From positions 1 to 40,600 of the forward strand of contig JAKMEQ010000045.1 of assembly GCA_022425805.1 (NCBI GenBank): DNA of 40,600 bases, written 5' to 3'. This document shows, piece by piece, positions 9,475 to 26,884 of the stretch (within the stretch, counting starts at the first letter, position 1; the number at the start of each line of letters is the position of its first letter). Below the pieces are notes generated by a model that searched no databases, was not told the origin of the DNA, and saw nothing but the letters and a program-made list of their open reading frames with translations. The position numbers and the translations under genes are program-made. The DNA is from Acidimicrobiales bacterium. Lineage in GTDB: Bacteria > Actinomycetota > Acidimicrobiia > Acidimicrobiales > UBA8592.

Positions 9475-10335
9475 TCAGCTGGTTGTTTGCAGAAAAGCAG
9501 CGACAGCGTCTGTAAAGACGTCGTTTTGGTCGCCAGCGACCATATGCCCAGCCCCGCTAACATCAACGAATGATGCTTCTGGAAATTCGTTTATAAATTC
9601 TTCTGCCTCAACCTCGGTAACGAGGTCGCTTAGCCTCCCCCTGATGAGGAGTATTGGCACCTTAACAGCTTTACAAACGGAGGTTAGCAGATCTGGGTTT
9701 TGCATCTCTAACCGTTTTTCAGTACCGGCCATTTCGATAAACGCTGGGTCCCAATGCCAAAACCATCGACCATTTCGCTGATGTAAATTTTTCTTGAGAC
9801 CTGTCAAATCTGAAGGTTTTCGCCGTTGTGGGTTGTACGTAGCGATAGCCTCTGCCGCTTCTTCAAGAGTGGCGAACCCGGTTTGAATGTGTTCCTGCAT
9901 AAACGCCTTCACCCTGTCAGCTCCTTGGGGGTTCATCCTAGGGACAACATCTACCAATACTAGCGACCTGATTGAATTTGATTTTAGTTGCCCGCTGAGA
10001 TACATGCCTGCTAACCCACCCAGAGAAGCTCCAATCACGACCGGACATATTTCAAGCTCCTGAAGAACACTGAGTACATCTTCTGCAAAATCGTTGAGAC
10101 CGTATTCTCCCTTTTTCGCCCAATCTGAACCACCATGCCCGCGAAGATCCAAGGAAACAGTGAACCAACCTTGGTTCGCTATAGTGGTAGCTGTAGAGCC
10201 CCAGGAGTGGCGCGTTTGCCCTCCTCCATGAAGAAATACCGCAGCATTATTAGATGGTTCACCCCAAAGATCTGCTTCAATTTGGATGCCTGACCTTGTA
10301 GTGAAACGTTCAGTGGTTCGACTGGGCAATGACAT
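9475..10335 (-). CDS. Alpha/beta-fold hydrolase
   Basis: This 286-residue hydrolase has the oxyanion-hole segment HGGG (36-39), a nucleophile elbow GASLGG with Ser104, an acid at about Asp237 (SDLVTE) and the general base His264 (GAGHMV). The nucleophile is Ser, so it is an esterase, lactonase or C-C hydrolase type rather than a dehalogenase. It is the last gene of the operon that starts with the CMD/AhpD-like gene; the upstream CoA-transferase gene ends 19 bases before its ATG. The substrate cannot be told from sequence. Confidence 0.82.
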   Translation of the reverse strand: MSLPSRTTERFTTRSGIQIEADLWGEPSNNAAVFLHGGGQTRHSWGSTATTIANQGWFTVSLDLRGHGGSDWAKKGEYGLNDFAEDVLSVLQELEICPVVIGASLGGLAGMYLSGQLKSNSIRSLVLVDVVPRMNPQGADRVKAFMQEHIQTGFATLEEAAEAIATYNPQRRKPSDLTGLKKNLHQRNGRWFWHWDPAFIEMAGTEKRLEMQNPDLLTSVCKAVKVPILLIRGRLSDLVTEVEAEEFINEFPEASFVDVSGAGHMVAGDQNDVFTDAVAAFLQTTS

Positions 10336-10354: not shown

Positions 10355-11533
10355 CTATACGACAGTATTCGAGTCGCGTAGTCGATGAATTTCTTCCAAG
10401 TCGTACCCTAGTTCAGAGAGAAGTTCATCCGTGTGTTCCCCATAAGCAGGTGCAGGCCTCGGGCTCACTGATTCTTCTCCCATGAAGGCAGCACCTTGAC
10501 GCGGAACTCTCATCTTCCCAACTCTTGGATGAACTATTTCCTGCAATGCCCCTCTTTCTATTACGTGAAGGTCTTCCGAAACTTCGCTTGGGTCGAGAAC
10601 AGGAACAGCAGGAACATCAGATCTTTGGCAGCGAGACAACACATCTTCACTTGTGAACGCATTCACCATTTCTCCAAAAGCTCCGTACCACTGTGTAAAA
10701 TTTTTGCTCCTATTCGCTGCTGATGAGAATCGTTCATCTTCAGCTAAATCCAAACGATCTAAAGCGCTACAGACAGCATGCCATTGTTTGTCTGTTCCAG
10801 CGGTAACAGAAACCCACCCGTCTAATGTAGAAAAAAGCTGATACGAACTAAGTAAATTCGGGAGATGCAAGGCATCATCATCGAGAAGAGTTTCGTGCAT
10901 CATTACGTCCGGCCAGTTAAAGGCGATATTAGCTTCAAGCATCGAGATTTCAATATGCTGACCACAACCGGTGGTACTTCTTCGATATAAGGCTGTGGAA
11001 ATAGCCTGAGCGGTGGTTAAAGCCGCCACCTTATCCGCTACCATTCCACGAATAAGCATGGGACCTTCTGGTGTCTTCTGCGCACCTGCCCACCCAGAAA
11101 GTGCTTGAATCACAGGATCATAGACTGGTCGTTCACTATACGGACCCGAAGATCCAAACCCAGATGAAGAGACATAAATAACGTCAGAGAATTTTTCGTG
11201 AACTTGTTCGTAGGAAAACCCAAGACGTGCTACAGCTCCTGGGCGGAATCCTTGAATGAAGACGTCACAAGATTCTATAAGTTTCCAAAAAACAACCTTC
11301 CCATCTTTATCCATAAGGTCGACTCCAATCGACCGTTTTCCAGCGTTAGCATTTGCGAACCAACCTGACATGTTTTCTTTTCGGCTTCCATACATGCGCA
11401 GATCATCACCACCTGTCACATTTTCGACTTTAATAATTTCCGCTCCCTGTGTTGCTAGAAGATACGTTGCCCCGGGAACAGCAATCATTTGCCCCAATTC
11501 AAGGATTTTAACTCCCTCTAATGGCCCCGTCAT
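10355..11533 (-). CDS. CaiB/BaiF family III CoA-transferase
   Basis: This 392-residue protein matches the family III CoA-transferases, which move CoA between carboxylic acids through an aspartyl-CoA thioester. Landmarks are the start GPLEGVKILELGQMIAVPGA, the nucleotide-binding GKRSIGVDL, and the catalytic Asp139 in YSERPVYDPVIQALSG. AAGGAG is placed six bases before the ATG. Its position between the P450 and the hydrolase suggests that it activates an acid made by those enzymes, using a CoA donor such as succinyl-CoA. The donor is inference. Confidence 0.88.
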   Translation of the reverse strand: MTGPLEGVKILELGQMIAVPGATYLLATQGAEIIKVENVTGGDDLRMYGSRKENMSGWFANANAGKRSIGVDLMDKDGKVVFWKLIESCDVFIQGFRPGAVARLGFSYEQVHEKFSDVIYVSSSGFGSSGPYSERPVYDPVIQALSGWAGAQKTPEGPMLIRGMVADKVAALTTAQAISTALYRRSTTGCGQHIEISMLEANIAFNWPDVMMHETLLDDDALHLPNLLSSYQLFSTLDGWVSVTAGTDKQWHAVCSALDRLDLAEDERFSSAANRSKNFTQWYGAFGEMVNAFTSEDVLSRCQRSDVPAVPVLDPSEVSEDLHVIERGALQEIVHPRVGKMRVPRQGAAFMGEESVSPRPAPAYGEHTDELLSELGYDLEEIHRLRDSNTVV

Positions 11534-11560: not shown

Positions 11561-12784
11561 CTACTTTGGTTTGAACTGCAGCCCCAACTCTGTAACAGCC
11601 ATGAATGAATTTCCCTGAATAATCGGACCTCTTTGATCCGGCGTAGCTAATCGTGGGGAACCACATTGTTCTACGATAAGTTGCGACCCGATGACAGCTT
11701 CAGCACGTGCCAGTTCATACCCAATACAAAAATGTTTCCCTTGACCAAACCCTAAATGACCAGACCTTTGCGGATCTTTCGAGTTACCCGACCGGAGTTC
11801 TTTCTCAAGATGTAAGTCAGATCGGAAGATATCAAATTCATTCGGAGATCGGAAAACAGTCGGGTCGTGATGCGCTGCCCCCATACATACACGAACACGT
11901 GCCCCTTTCGGTATCTCGATTCCGTAAAGTTCTATTGGCAGAGTTGTGAAACGGTCTTCACTTATAACTGGCGGAGTACGTCTCATCGTTTCGCTAAAAG
12001 CATTACTCCACAGCTTCGGGTCATCCTGGATGTTCTTGAGCGCTTCAGGATGGGTGAGGACATTCCACCACATATTTGCAATTGCCTTATCAGTTGTTTC
12101 GCCGCCAGCAATAAATAGCAAACCGCAAAAGGCAGTTATCTCTTTCTCTGTTAATCGATGCCCATCAACTTCTGCTCTGGCAATTTTAGCTATATGGTCA
12201 GTTCGATTCGGGTCGTCAACGTCCACTAACAATGGAGTGATGTGTTTACAGAATGCCGTATTCGCGTCCAGTCCCCGTTCGCGACTCGCAGGTGAACCGG
12301 ACAAACCCATAATCATGTCGGTCACCCATTGGCGGAAAAGGTGACCCTCTCCTACCATCCCCAATATCGAAGAGATGACATCGACCGGAAGTAGAGAACT
12401 GAAATCACGAACTAACGCAACTTCTTCATTCTCTGGAAACTTCTCGATCAATCGTCTCGAACAATCTTCAATCATGCTTAAATAAGATTTCATCCTTTTA
12501 CCAACGAAATCGGGTGCTACGATGCTTCTCCGTACAACATGGCCATAGTCATCACGTGATATCAACGTTGGGCCAACTACCTGACCCGTCGTGAGCTCAT
12601 AAGTTGATGAAGAAAATGTGTCGTGGTCGGAAAAAACAGTTAGAACATCTTGATAACGCGTCAACCACCAGATTTTCCCGACCTCATCGTAAAAAAGAGG
12701 GTGTTCATCACGCATCTGCTCCCATACCGGCTCAGGATTTTCTCGATATTCGCTACTGTACAGAACATCTGAATTTAGGGACAT
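11561..12784 (-). CDS. Cytochrome P450
   Basis: This 407-residue soluble bacterial P450 carries the I-helix oxygen-activation motif AGGETTD, the K-helix ExxR (ETMRR) and the heme loop FGQGKHFCIG with the thiolate ligand at about Cys353. It would insert one oxygen atom into a hydrophobic substrate. No ferredoxin or ferredoxin reductase gene is seen in the window, so its electron donors must lie elsewhere. It follows the CMD/AhpD-like gene by 20 bases and precedes the CoA-transferase by 27, so all are in one operon. The substrate is unknown; terpenoids, steroids and alkyl acids are plausible for the family. Confidence 0.92.
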   Translation of the reverse strand: MSLNSDVLYSSEYRENPEPVWEQMRDEHPLFYDEVGKIWWLTRYQDVLTVFSDHDTFSSSTYELTTGQVVGPTLISRDDYGHVVRRSIVAPDFVGKRMKSYLSMIEDCSRRLIEKFPENEEVALVRDFSSLLPVDVISSILGMVGEGHLFRQWVTDMIMGLSGSPASRERGLDANTAFCKHITPLLVDVDDPNRTDHIAKIARAEVDGHRLTEKEITAFCGLLFIAGGETTDKAIANMWWNVLTHPEALKNIQDDPKLWSNAFSETMRRTPPVISEDRFTTLPIELYGIEIPKGARVRVCMGAAHHDPTVFRSPNEFDIFRSDLHLEKELRSGNSKDPQRSGHLGFGQGKHFCIGYELARAEAVIGSQLIVEQCGSPRLATPDQRGPIIQGNSFMAVTELGLQFKPK

Positions 12785-12804: not shown

Positions 12805-13335
12805 TCAGCCGTGAGCGTAATATGTGGGATCCTCGTCTGGATCCACTGTCAAGTTAAGGGGACAGTCATTAGCGATATCGAGAACGGTCAGGACGCGCCC
12901 CATTCCTAGGCAGAATCCAATCAGCGTAACTAATTCAAGTATCTGCTGATCAGTAAAATTAGCTTTTGCTTTTTCCCAGAAAGTCTCATCGTCCTTCAAA
13001 GCCACATGATCAAAAACAAAGCGTTCGGCCATTTCTGCAGCGATTTTCTCCGCAGGAGAGAATGCCCCAATACTCTCATACTCCGATACACGATGATAGA
13101 GATCTTCTTCAAGTCCTTGCTGCATCGCCGATGCAGAACGCGTTTCCATTCATATATGGCATTCGTTAATTTGTGCGATACGCATCCGCGCAACTTCACG
13201 TACGCGAGTATCCAAAGAAATCTTCGTATAAAGAGCGTTACCAGCTATTCCGATACCCGCTGCAACATCTTTCTGCAAAGTCCACATTCGACTGCGCTCA
13301 AGACCGTCACCCTCTGGAATCTCTATTCGTGCCAT
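12805..13335 (-). CDS. Candidate selenoprotein: CMD/AhpD-like protein with in-frame UGA (Sec) in a Cys-x-x-Sec motif
   Basis: Two open stretches (13335-13153 and 13149-12805) are in the same frame and separated only by TGA at 13150-13152. Read through, they give one 176-residue carboxymuconolactone decarboxylase/AhpD-like protein. The stop falls at residue 62 in NECHI-U-METRSAS, exactly where AhpD-type peroxidases have the second Cys of their Cys-x-x-Cys redox pair. Cys59 is kept. AAGGAGGG lies about seven bases before the ATG at 13335, while the ATG after the TGA has no binding site of its own. A 7-bp hairpin with loop GGC follows the TGA by 20 nt, as expected of a bacterial SECIS. CMD and AhpD-like selenoproteins are known from marine metagenomes. 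It probably acts as a thiol/selenol peroxidase or reductase and is the first gene of the P450 operon. A nonsense mutation is the alternative. Confidence 0.82.
13120..13152 (-). promoter_or_regulatory. Candidate bacterial SECIS element with Sec UGA codon
   Basis: On the minus strand, UGA (13152-13150) is followed by 13 bases, then arm CUGCAUC (13136-13130), loop GGC (13129-13127) and arm GAUGCAG (13126-13120). The stem is 7 bp without mismatch. The apical loop begins 20 nt after the UGA and its first base is G. These fit the usual bSECIS rules (loop 16-37 nt downstream of UGA, small loop, G in the first two loop positions). The hairpin lies inside the coding sequence, as bacterial SECIS elements do. 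Confidence 0.78.
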
Positions 13336-13426
13336 GAAGCGCCCTCCTTAACCAGATTTCTTTTTTGAAACGTACTATGTTCAAGCATAGCCGCTTACTG
13401 ATTCCCAAGAAAGACAGAACCACGTT

Positions 13427-14092
13427 GTGACAGAATTTAATTTACTTCAAACCGACCATCTCCTAACAACGACGCGTGCCGTTAGAAAACGTCTTGATCT
13501 CAAGAAACCTGTTTCAAGACAGCTCATCCTTGACTGCATCCGCGTCTCGACTCAAGCACCTGCGGGGGGCAATTACCAAAAATGGCGTTGGGTAATCGTC
13601 GATGATCCTGAAAAAAAACTTGTGGTAGCTGATGCATACCGGGAAGCATACGCGCCATATATTGAAGCACAAAAAGGAGCTGTTTCATCCAAAGCAAAAA
13701 AGAACTCGACTGTAGAAAAAATTATGTCGTCCAGCGACTATTTGGCGCAGATACTCGAACAAGTACCCGTGCTTGCAATCCCCTGCTCTTTAGGAACACC
13801 TGCTGATATGGAAGGAAGCCTTGGAGGAGGAACACAAGGATGGTGGGGTTCAGTTCTTCCGGCTGTCTGGAGTTACATGCTTGCTGCGCGCTCTAGAGGT
13901 CTAGGAACAGCATGGACGACCTTGCACCTTCGGTTTGCCGACCGTGTTGGGGAGGCTCTTGGGATTCCCGAGACAGTAACACAATTAGCATGTATTCCAA
14001 CCGCCTTCTATACCGGAAAAGATTTTCGTACTGGGTCTAGAAAACCTGCAGAACAAATAACCTACTGGAACAATTGGAAACAAACCGAATAA
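13427..14092 (+). CDS. Nitroreductase-family FMN oxidoreductase (second copy)
   Basis: This 221-residue protein is a paralogue of the product of 6948-7622: the same RAVRKRLDLKKPVS start, TQAPAGGNYQKWRW cofactor segment and AARSRGLGTAWTT landmark. The start is GTG at 13427 with no good ribosome binding site; the nearest purine run is about 20 bases upstream. It is divergent from the CMD/AhpD-like gene (91-base gap), so the two may share a control region. The first copy belongs to an SDR/epoxide-hydrolase operon and this one stands alone, so the copies may serve different substrates. Confidence 0.82.
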   Translation: MTEFNLLQTDHLLTTTRAVRKRLDLKKPVSRQLILDCIRVSTQAPAGGNYQKWRWVIVDDPEKKLVVADAYREAYAPYIEAQKGAVSSKAKKNSTVEKIMSSSDYLAQILEQVPVLAIPCSLGTPADMEGSLGGGTQGWWGSVLPAVWSYMLAARSRGLGTAWTTLHLRFADRVGEALGIPETVTQLACIPTAFYTGKDFRTGSRKPAEQITYWNNWKQTE

Positions 14093-14583: not shown

Positions 14584-15495
14584 ATGATCCCCAAAGATGA
14601 AACATTCAATGGAACTTGGCCTTATCTGCCAAATTTTTGCGACGCAGCAGGATTCCAACAGCATTATGTCGATATTGGAGAAGGTGAACCTACAATCTGC
14701 CTGCACGGCGAACCTACTTGGGGATACCTATACAGAAACATGATCCCCAAACTCGCAGCAAACACCCGAGTCATAGTCCCTGATCATATGGGGTTCGGGA
14801 AAAGCGAAACCCCTGCCGATCGTGAATATACTTTGCAAGCCCATACGGAGAATCTGACTGCCTTGATAGATTCACTCGAACTAGAAAAAATAACTTTTGT
14901 TATGCAGGATTGGGGTGGGCCAATTGGGACCGCTTACACAGTCCGCCATCCAACCAAAGTGAAACGCTTGATCTATATGAATACAATTGCGGGGTATGGC
15001 AGGGTTCCTGAAACAACTACATCTATAAATAACTCACCGTGGTTCAAATGGATAGGTGAGGGCTTAGAATCTGGAAGAACCGAACAGGTTCTCCGCAATG
15101 CTGGTTCGACTGTCTTGTCAATAATGAAAATAATCGGCTTCCAAAATTCTAACGTGATAGATGATGTCTGGATCGAAGCTTACAGTTCTCCTTTCCCTGA
15201 CTACCAAAGCAGTATCGGAGTTTACGAATTCCCTATTGATGCTTATCTAGGAAGAATTGTAGATTATGTTCTTGATGGAGCAAGTGGCGTCCCTGACCTC
15301 CAATCCAAACCGGCTATTCTCCTTGAGGGCCTTGAGGATCGAGCGATTCCTCCTGACAGAGCCATTGCAGGATTCAAATCTCTTTGGCCAGACGCGCCAG
15401 TTATTGAACTACCAGGAGTTGGACATTTCTGCCAAGAAGATGCCCCTGATTTACTGGTGTCACACATTCTTAGATTCTTTCAAACGAACCCTTGA
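14584..15495 (+). CDS. Haloalkane dehalogenase, HLD-I (DhlA-like) type
   Basis: This 303-residue alpha/beta hydrolase has Asp in place of Ser as nucleophile: QDWGG with Asp109, followed by Trp110, the halide-binding Trp. HGEPTWGYLYRNMIP at 41-55 and AYSSPFPDYQ match the Xanthobacter DhlA group. The acid is Asp252 (LEDRAIPP), placed after the late strand as in HLD-I, and the base is His281 (GVGHFCQED). It would hydrolyse a carbon-halogen bond to an alcohol and halide. AAAGGG lies before the ATG. The downstream acyl-CoA ligase gene follows by 48 bases on the same strand. Fluoroacetate-type dehalogenases and epoxide hydrolases are relatives, but they lack the adjacent Trp. Confidence 0.83.
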   Translation: MIPKDETFNGTWPYLPNFCDAAGFQQHYVDIGEGEPTICLHGEPTWGYLYRNMIPKLAANTRVIVPDHMGFGKSETPADREYTLQAHTENLTALIDSLELEKITFVMQDWGGPIGTAYTVRHPTKVKRLIYMNTIAGYGRVPETTTSINNSPWFKWIGEGLESGRTEQVLRNAGSTVLSIMKIIGFQNSNVIDDVWIEAYSSPFPDYQSSIGVYEFPIDAYLGRIVDYVLDGASGVPDLQSKPAILLEGLEDRAIPPDRAIAGFKSLWPDAPVIELPGVGHFCQEDAPDLLVSHILRFFQTNP

Positions 15496-24549: not shown

Positions 24550-25815
24550 ATGGATGCACAAACCGTAAAAAGCATAAAGAAAAAAATCCGCTACGAATCG
24601 GAGCGCACCGCACCTCCAGAAGGTTTTCCGAAGTTCCATGACATTCCTAAAGAGCGGTACACCTCCGATGAGTTCCATGAGCTCGAACTCGAACACGTCT
24701 TTGGCAAATCATGGCTTATAGCTGGCCGTGTAGAAGATATTCCCAATCCTGGTGATTACTTTACGTTCAAGAAACTCAAAGAACCTATGATCATTGTTCG
24801 TGGGGCTGATGGAGAAATTCGGTGTTTCTATAACACCTGCCAACACAGAGGGGCGCCAGTAGTTAGAGAGGAATGCGGATCAGCCCGACGGCTAAGATGC
24901 CAATACCATTCCTGGACCTACGACATTACCGACGGAACCCTCGTAGCCCTTCCTGACGAACGCGATTTTGTGGATTTAGACAAGACAGAACGGTCCCTCC
25001 CTAGAATAAGCTGCGATACCTTCGCCGGATTTATCTTCATCAATAAAGATCTAAATGCTGTTCCCTTGCTTGAATACCTCGGTGATGCGACTCAAATGCT
25101 TGAGCCTCTTAACTGTGAAACTTTACGCGAGGTCTACAGGCGAAGCATCGTTATCCCATGCAACTGGAAAGTAACAGCGGAAGCTTTCCTAGAGGTTTAC
25201 CATTTCAGACACATTCACTCGAATAAAGACGGCTTCTCTGTGCTTAATAGCAACCAAGCAGCAATGGGCCTGTACCCAAACGGGCATAGCCGTCAGGTCT
25301 GCGGGTATTCGAACCAACAGTTCCGAAATCATGGTATGGAATCATGGGATGACTGGAAGCCGCTTGACAATGGCCCTTTTGCCATGATCGAAACGGAAAA
25401 TCAAGAGTTTTTGGACATGGTTGATTGCACCAGTACAGCTGTGAGCTATTTCCCGAACTACATTCTCCCATTGGGCACAATTGGATTTCCGGTTCTTCTT
25501 TTTTGGCCAATGGGCACAGGGAAGACCCTCTTGGAATGGTCATATTACGCTCCGAAAGATTGGGAAGGCGATGAAATGCCTACCCATTGGAAAAAACGAT
25601 CCGAACAGTTTGATCAGATTATGGATGAAGACAAATTCAATATGGCACCTATGCAGGAATCACTAGAATCACCGGCATTAACAGGTATTCCGATCAACTA
25701 CCAGGAACGAAGAATCTGGCATTTACATGAGCAAATAGACCACCTGATCGGCGAAGAACACATACCTGAAGAACTTAGAATAGAAAAATTACTAAGCCCC
25801 TACATTGAAAGTTAG
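24550..25815 (+). CDS. Rieske non-heme iron oxygenase, alpha subunit
   Basis: This 421-residue oxygenase has the Rieske [2Fe-2S] ligands Cys97, His99, Cys117 and His120 (CQHRGAPV and CQYHSW). The mononuclear iron site is E211xxxE215xxH218xxxxH223 (EAFLEVYHFRHIH). The acidic residue that bridges electron flow between subunits is Asp in naphthalene dioxygenase; here it is Glu215, as reported for the CntA/YeaW carnitine oxygenases. This hints at a demethylating or quaternary-amine-type enzyme, but similarity by eye cannot settle the substrate. No reductase or ferredoxin gene is adjacent. The gene sits two bases after the SDR and is followed by two VOC genes on the same strand. Confidence 0.87.
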   Translation: MDAQTVKSIKKKIRYESERTAPPEGFPKFHDIPKERYTSDEFHELELEHVFGKSWLIAGRVEDIPNPGDYFTFKKLKEPMIIVRGADGEIRCFYNTCQHRGAPVVREECGSARRLRCQYHSWTYDITDGTLVALPDERDFVDLDKTERSLPRISCDTFAGFIFINKDLNAVPLLEYLGDATQMLEPLNCETLREVYRRSIVIPCNWKVTAEAFLEVYHFRHIHSNKDGFSVLNSNQAAMGLYPNGHSRQVCGYSNQQFRNHGMESWDDWKPLDNGPFAMIETENQEFLDMVDCTSTAVSYFPNYILPLGTIGFPVLLFWPMGTGKTLLEWSYYAPKDWEGDEMPTHWKKRSEQFDQIMDEDKFNMAPMQESLESPALTGIPINYQERRIWHLHEQIDHLIGEEHIPEELRIEKLLSPYIES

Positions 25816-25822
25816 AGGAGAA

Positions 25823-26293
25823 ATGTTTAATCTTCAGGAAATTTTTCATATTGGAATTCGAGTACCTGATATTTATCAGGCAATGGAAGAGATGGGAGAA
25901 TCTTTAAACCTTACATGGGCAGAAGTAGTTGAAACTCCGGGTAAAAGCATTTGGACTCCGGAAGGTGGCCATCAAAAAGTTCCTCTAATGTTCGTGTACT
26001 CATGTGAAGGACCTCAACATCTTGAGTTGCTTGAAGGAGCTGAAGGTTCCTTCTTGGATGGGCGTGAAGATTCTGGAGTTCACCATTTCGGAGTTTGGGT
26101 AGATGATGTCAAAGCGGAAACCGACCGCCTTATCGCTCTTGGCTGGGACCTTCTTGCATCAGCGAAATCTCCCGAAGAAGGGTACGCCGGAATGGCGTAT
26201 CTCGCTCCTCCCAGTGGAACAATAGTCGAACTTGTTACCCCTGCAATCAAACCCAAATTTGAAAGATGGTGGGCTGGAGAACCTCTTAACTAG
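25823..26293 (+). CDS. VOC (glyoxalase/bleomycin-resistance fold) protein, copy 1
   Basis: This 156-residue vicinal-oxygen-chelate protein has two beta-alpha-beta-beta-beta modules. Likely metal ligands are His in IFHIGIRV, Glu in PQHLELLEG, His in GVHHFGVWV and Glu in GTIVELV. Members include glyoxalases, methylmalonyl-CoA epimerases and extradiol dioxygenases; the placement of the ligands does not decide which. I use the ATG at 25823, with AGAGGAG directly before it, because the duplicate copy starts at the same place. It begins eight bases after the Rieske stop, so it is in that operon. Confidence 0.82.
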   Translation: MFNLQEIFHIGIRVPDIYQAMEEMGESLNLTWAEVVETPGKSIWTPEGGHQKVPLMFVYSCEGPQHLELLEGAEGSFLDGREDSGVHHFGVWVDDVKAETDRLIALGWDLLASAKSPEEGYAGMAYLAPPSGTIVELVTPAIKPKFERWWAGEPLN

Positions 26294-26395: not shown

Positions 26396-26884
26396 ATGTT
26401 AAATCTTCAGGATGTTTTTCATGTAGGAATTCGAGTACCTGATATTTATCAGGCAATGGAAGAGATGGGAGAATCTTTAAACCTTACATGGACTGAAGTA
26501 GTTGAAACTCCGGGTCAAAGACTTTGGACTCCGGAAGGTGGCCAACAAAAAGTTCCTCTAAAGTTCGTGTATTCATGTGAAGGACCTCAACATCTTGAGT
26601 TGCTTGAAGGAGCTGAAGGTTCCTTCTGGGATGGGCGTGAAGATTCTGGAGTTCACCATTTAGGAATTTGGGTAGATGATGTCAAAGCGGAAACCGACCG
26701 CCTTATCGCTCTTGGCTGGGGCCTTCTTGGATCAGCGAAGTCTCCCGAAGAAGGGTACGCCAGTATGGCGTATCTCGCTCCTCCCAGTGGAACAATAGTC
26801 GAACTTGTTACTTCTGCTAATAAACCCCGATTTGACCGATGGTACGCCGGAGGGCCCTTCTACGACGATAATTCAACGAAATAA
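26396..26884 (+). CDS. VOC (glyoxalase/bleomycin-resistance fold) protein, copy 2
   Basis: This 162-residue protein is a tandem duplicate of the product of 25823-26293: about 23 differences over 155 aligned residues by eye, roughly 85% identity. All four candidate metal ligands are conserved. Differences cluster at residues 41-43, around 50-56 and at the C-terminus, where copy 2 is longer (YDDNSTK). The sequence before the ATG (GTTAGAGGA) is also duplicated. A 102-base AT-rich spacer separates the copies. Conservation of both frames suggests that both are functional. Confidence 0.82.
   Translation: MLNLQDVFHVGIRVPDIYQAMEEMGESLNLTWTEVVETPGQRLWTPEGGQQKVPLKFVYSCEGPQHLELLEGAEGSFWDGREDSGVHHLGIWVDDVKAETDRLIALGWGLLGSAKSPEEGYASMAYLAPPSGTIVELVTSANKPRFDRWYAGGPFYDDNSTK

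Follow-up and report, generated by a model that had tools for sequence, protein, structure and literature searches.

We report that an apparent stop codon in a gene of marine Acidimicrobiia almost certainly encodes selenocysteine (Sec) as an active-site residue of a small redox enzyme. The gene lies in a stretch of 40,600 nucleotides from an Acidimicrobiales bacterium (hereafter the window), and on the evidence of its sequence and that of its relatives we predict with very high confidence that its product is a CMD/AhpD-fold selenoprotein in which the UGA at codon 62 stands for Sec. The following features are central to this reading:

12805..13335, minus strand: predicted CMD/AhpD-like selenoprotein gene, 176 aa, Cys59-x-x-Sec62 (from the read-through frame, PF02627 and the predicted fold)
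13150..13152, minus strand: in-frame TGA, predicted to be read as Sec at residue 62 (TGA in 18/18 orthologues, TGC in distant homologues)
13342..13349, minus strand: Shine-Dalgarno sequence AAGGAGGG before the ATG at 13335 (direct reading)
13120..13136, minus strand: putative bacterial SECIS hairpin CUGCAUC-GGC-GAUGCAG (from the absence of synonymous change, covariation, model fit, and Cys and recoding controls)

In translation, the minus-strand frame runs from the ATG at 13335 to a terminal TGA at 12807-12805 (M1 to G176) and contains one internal TGA (13152-13150) in the context INE-C59-H-I-U62-M-E-T-R66. An earlier note on this DNA had described a 176-residue CMD/AhpD-like frame with a single TGA in place of the second Cys of a Cys-x-x-Cys pair, Cys59 being kept; both the arrangement and the coordinates were right, and the strand, which the note left unstated, is minus. 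The plus-strand reading of 12805-13335 was rejected, its translation being meaningless.

Read through with Cys at position 62, the protein matches PF02627 CMD (E 4.7e-8, 33.4 bits, cut-off 23) over residues 32-104, across the TGA, which bears out the similarity claimed earlier for both halves of the frame. The AlphaFold2 model (pLDDT 84.8) shows an AhpD-like all-helical fold, and Foldseek places it closest to structures of AhpD/PA0269 and of peroxidase-related CMD proteins (E 3e-5; for 7xw1 the TM score to target is 0.86). No NCBIfam model passed its cut-off on the window protein, the nearest curated models, those of YciW-related and peroxidase-related CMD proteins, both remaining below it. 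The canonical AhpD relay reads Glu-x11-Cys-x2-Cys-x3-His. In our alignment of 23 sequences, Glu47, Cys59, Cys/Sec62 and Arg66 are invariant, and Arg66 sits where AhpD usually has its His. The AhpD-like identity given in the earlier note holds for the fold; the protein itself, as its sequence indicates, is not a canonical AhpD, and peroxidase chemistry is not assured because the AhpD His is Arg here. Taking sequence and model together, the protein is most likely a selenol/thiol oxidoreductase, either peroxidase-like or disulfide-reducing. At the position of the AhpD active site, Cys59-His-Ile-Sec62 would form a redox pair, with Glu47 before and Arg66 after it; one member of the pair would attack the substrate and the other would resolve the intermediate.

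The gene stands among the following neighbours:

11561..12784, minus strand: cytochrome P450 (PF00067), 20 bp downstream of the CMD gene, a labile neighbour
10355..11533, minus strand: family III CoA-transferase (CaiB-like, PF02515), a conserved downstream neighbour
9475..10335, minus strand: alpha/beta hydrolase, a mostly conserved downstream neighbour
13427..14092, plus strand: nitroreductase-family protein (PF00881), divergently transcribed, a conserved neighbour

On the minus strand the CMD gene is followed by the P450, CoA-transferase and alpha/beta hydrolase genes with gaps of about 19-27 bp, and co-transcription with the latter two (here with the P450 gene too) within a catabolic gene island is probable. 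The surrounding island also holds paired nitroreductases, an acyl-CoA synthetase and a molybdopterin oxidoreductase; with the first nitroreductase and the molybdopterin oxidoreductase as its two ends, it is well conserved across the genus. In all genus genomes that we looked at, the CMD gene is followed by the CoA-transferase gene, and in most of them by the hydrolase gene too. The operon with a P450, which the earlier note had emphasised, is real in the window; however, the P450 gene stands beside the CMD gene in just two of 17 genus genomes (that of the window and G003) and in G018 from a sister genus, so the selenoprotein persists without it, the P450 does not define the operon, and we rejected it as a functional partner conserved with the CMD gene. 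In another genus member, a stretch just before the CoA-transferase gene (L099:10529-10740; a weak match, E 0.022 in a tiny search) looks like the C-terminal end of a P450 and is suggestive of a decayed 3' end and hence of P450 loss. Gene context is not conserved in more distant homologues, and that comparison gave no functional clue. Elsewhere in the window, two tandem ORFs of 162 aa (25805-26293 and 26396-26884) have translations that begin almost alike, likely reflecting a recent duplication.

With these neighbours in view, a more specific role can be sketched. The protein might be a Sec-dependent CMD enzyme for a particular step in an uncharacterised, CoA-dependent pathway of catabolism in marine Acidimicrobiia, for example reductive dehalogenation or the reduction of an intermediate that is peroxidised or bound to a thiol, with the CoA-transferase, the hydrolase, the paired nitroreductases, the acyl-CoA synthetase and the molybdopterin oxidoreductase of the island as partners, although we regard this reading as rather doubtful. 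Still less probable, in our estimate, is a selenoprotein devoted to reductive dehalogenation of halogenated metabolites instead of peroxide or disulfide chemistry. The CMD-fold debrominase Bmp8 does occur among the fold matches, yet at ranks 23, 26 and 28 and with 14% identity, and AhpD/PA0269-like structures score better. Likewise, an alpha/beta hydrolase at 14584-15495, conserved in the genus, is possibly of the haloalkane dehalogenase type, a guess made from its sequence, but it could be an ordinary esterase.

The reading as a selenol/thiol oxidoreductase presupposes that the internal TGA is a sense codon, and here the comparison with relatives is most informative. In a search of 60 genomes (the window's own and relatives), a single TGA was found at the same codon in 18 of 18 orthologues, which come from 17 of the 18 same-genus genomes, the window's own included, and from G018, the sister genus being of the same family. 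Since the orthologues of the relatives are 72-87% identical and all 18 share the codon, the sequences indicate that the TGA at residue 62 is not there by chance. It also occurs in homologues of Acidimicrobiia and Myxococcota with identity down to 37%; among titled genome records, these include two Myxococcota MAGs at approximately 41% identity, as well as Acidimicrobiia MAGs and AG-410-G14 (L109, apparently a single-cell genome) with a single TGA. Titled records that match genus genomes (L096-L101 and L109) were counted once. Solimonas, Mycolicibacterium and some of the relatives at the order level have TGC instead, and in well-aligned homologues residue 62 is Cys or TGA only, as the earlier note had expected. 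A 27-sequence tree requires no fewer than three changes of the Sec/Cys label, and residue 62 has thus probably switched between Sec and Cys more than once. One further contig, L108, is labelled Planctomycetaceae; its gene and surroundings are very like the Acidimicrobiales-type loci L106 and L107, and the label may be wrong.

Downstream of the TGA, the coding sequence itself carries the putative SECIS element. This hairpin is perfect, comprises 17 nt with a 7-bp stem and a GGC loop, and starts 14 nt past the UGA, from where it would direct decoding from within the coding sequence. Published rules for bacterial SECIS elements ask for a loop of 3-9 nt with G in loop position 1 or 2, a spacing of 16-37 nt after the UGA and an energy of -7.5 or below (PMC13188914); with a UGA-to-loop spacing of 20 nt, its GGC loop and -7.8 kcal/mol, just inside the cut-off, the window hairpin agrees with all of them. 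The same applies to all distinct Sec sequences except three, paralogues (L142-L144) in which the stem is kept and weaker, to one of ten Cys homologues and, when the window gene was recoded synonymously, to only 30 of 5000 variants. Taken in full, the 52-nt fold does not exceed shuffled sequences in stability (z -0.18); such single-sequence folding is uninformative, and codon-level and covariation tests were therefore used. All 21 distinct sequences, of 64-99% identity, carry the very same bases in codons 5 to 11 after the UGA, while wobble positions of the flanking codons vary freely in the same set. In pairwise counts, pS is 0 in the seven hairpin codons against 0.66-0.93 on either side (a range that leaves out the close pair L102/L105), so that synonymous divergence flanking the hairpin is saturated; pN amounts to 0.02-0.19. 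Among 22 representatives, both partners have changed in six of eight pairs, 86% of cells are paired (74% when shuffled, at most 53% in slid controls) and the covariation score is 0.42 (0.18 shuffled, at most 0.13 slid). RNAalifold recovers the same stem, and distant homologues, to judge from these alignments, preserve the hairpin via compensatory changes.

Decoding of the UGA at codon 62 as Sec would be carried out by SelB and tRNA-Sec. The earlier note had proposed a search for selA, selB, selD and tRNA-Sec, and all four occur in the genus: above curated cut-offs, selB and selA were each detected in 14 of 18 genus genomes, selD in 10, the window's own included, and tRNA-Sec in 15, with the anticodon TCA according to ARAGORN. 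In the window's own bin, which is 74% complete, selD is present; selA, selB and tRNA-Sec were not found there, and those tRNA-Sec candidates of the bin that were checked with ARAGORN turned out to be tRNA-Ser and tRNA-Leu. In the relative G012, selA, selB and tRNA-Sec lie within about 15 kb, beside glutamine synthetase-like and other housekeeping-like genes. When the own genome was searched with 20 kb of this locus, contig C15 matched its left flank (query 451-2598) with a match that stops 48 bases from the contig end, approximately 0.5 kb before the next G012 gene (3104) and 1.3 kb before selB (3897). The remaining 17 kb are absent from the own genome except for two short matches on other contigs. 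Since C15 breaks off shortly before the sel block and the bin is 74% complete, an assembly gap appears to be the simplest reading of the three missing genes.

Several other UGA-containing genes came to light alongside. The own selD has an in-frame TGA and is itself predicted to encode a selenoprotein (G000:C33:17627-18547, minus strand, locus L058). A PF02627 scan of the own genome found two further CMD-family CxxU genes with one TGA each and hairpins after the UGA (loci L155 and L156), in frames of approximately 360 and 305 aa, respectively:

G000:C31:3936-4043, minus strand: CMD-family CxxU gene, NECFYUTSAH
G000:C42:3325-3468, plus strand: CMD-family CxxU gene, TDCGYUKNV

The C31 gene resembles the CFYUT family NF041238, a likeness by motif alone. 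Several genus members have a second CMD selenoprotein paralogue of 39-45% identity (L142:6138-6611, L143:7996-8469 and L144:7518-7991), which is flanked by ABC transporter genes on one side and an acyl-CoA synthetase gene on the other and whose hairpin does not reach the published SECIS cut-off.

Could the TGA nevertheless be a former Cys codon altered by a nonsense mutation or a wrong base call? In a single MAG, one isolated in-frame stop would give the same picture, and selA, selB and tRNA-Sec were not found in the bin. Such a pseudogene or error is, however, extremely improbable: the 18 orthologues share the TGA in separate assemblies at saturated synonymous divergence, with strong purifying selection on either side of it and nucleotide-level selection on the downstream hairpin. 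Because the TGA recurs in so many separate assemblies, one of them the apparently single-cell AG-410-G14, it is not a read error. We give as little credence to two proteins arising by termination at the TGA and re-initiation. In the window, an ATG (13149-13147) directly follows the TGA and opens a 114-aa ORF, but CTN, ATT or ATC stands at this position in many relatives, so the ATG is not a conserved restart codon; moreover, the CMD domain spans the break, and a strong ribosome binding site precedes the first half only, as the earlier note had observed (AAGGAGGG, 6 nt before the ATG at 13335), the second half having none of its own. Insertion of another residue, such as Trp or Cys via a suppressor, has scarcely any probability either, for although selection on the frame shows read-through without identifying the inserted residue, UGA is also the terminal stop of the same gene, well-aligned homologues have Cys and never Trp at the site, and a putative SECIS element is present, with sel genes in the genus. 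Our results hence support the selenoprotein interpretation of the earlier note.

Related selenoproteins have been described before. The Global Ocean Sampling survey reported AhpD-like 1 and AhpD-like 2 selenoproteins (COG2128/PF02627) with CxxU (PMC2398784), and CMD-like and AhpD-like CxxU families have also been listed (PMC13188914); with the gene presented here they have the CMD/AhpD family, CxxU and marine bacteria in common, and the earlier note was correct in calling them known from marine metagenomes. The survey worked with metagenome reads, whereas here the host group, the full gene, its neighbours and the evolution of the SECIS element are resolved; some of its members, set beside our gene by description, may be this very gene. 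The YciW-related (seleno)protein model NF053654 has detectable similarity (E 6.9e-10 for P0001; all 23 family members match) and a Cys/Sec site in common with the window protein, which at 39 bits against a cut-off of 310 falls outside that curated family. Detectable similarity and the Cys/Sec site are likewise shared with NF041047 (GSU3128) and NF041238 (AhpD-related CFYUT). Pseudomonas aeruginosa AhpD PA0269 (7xw1, 2ijc, 2o4d) and the peroxidase-related TIGR01926 share the predicted fold and the Glu-x11-Cys-x2-Cys arrangement, while the window protein differs from them by Sec for the second Cys, Arg66 for the AhpD His and an identity of 15-20%. CxxU selenoproteins of the AhpD/CMD type are thus already established in marine metagenomes, and our gene adds a new subfamily member and no new system. 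For selenoproteins of Acidimicrobiia, we found no report in the open-access papers searched. The finding places Sec use in the mostly uncultured marine Acidimicrobiia with unusually strong SECIS evidence, and genes of this kind are likely mis-annotated as truncated in public genomes. A single small genome here holds several separate UGA genes of the CMD family, which makes it useful for studying why Sec is retained in preference to Cys.
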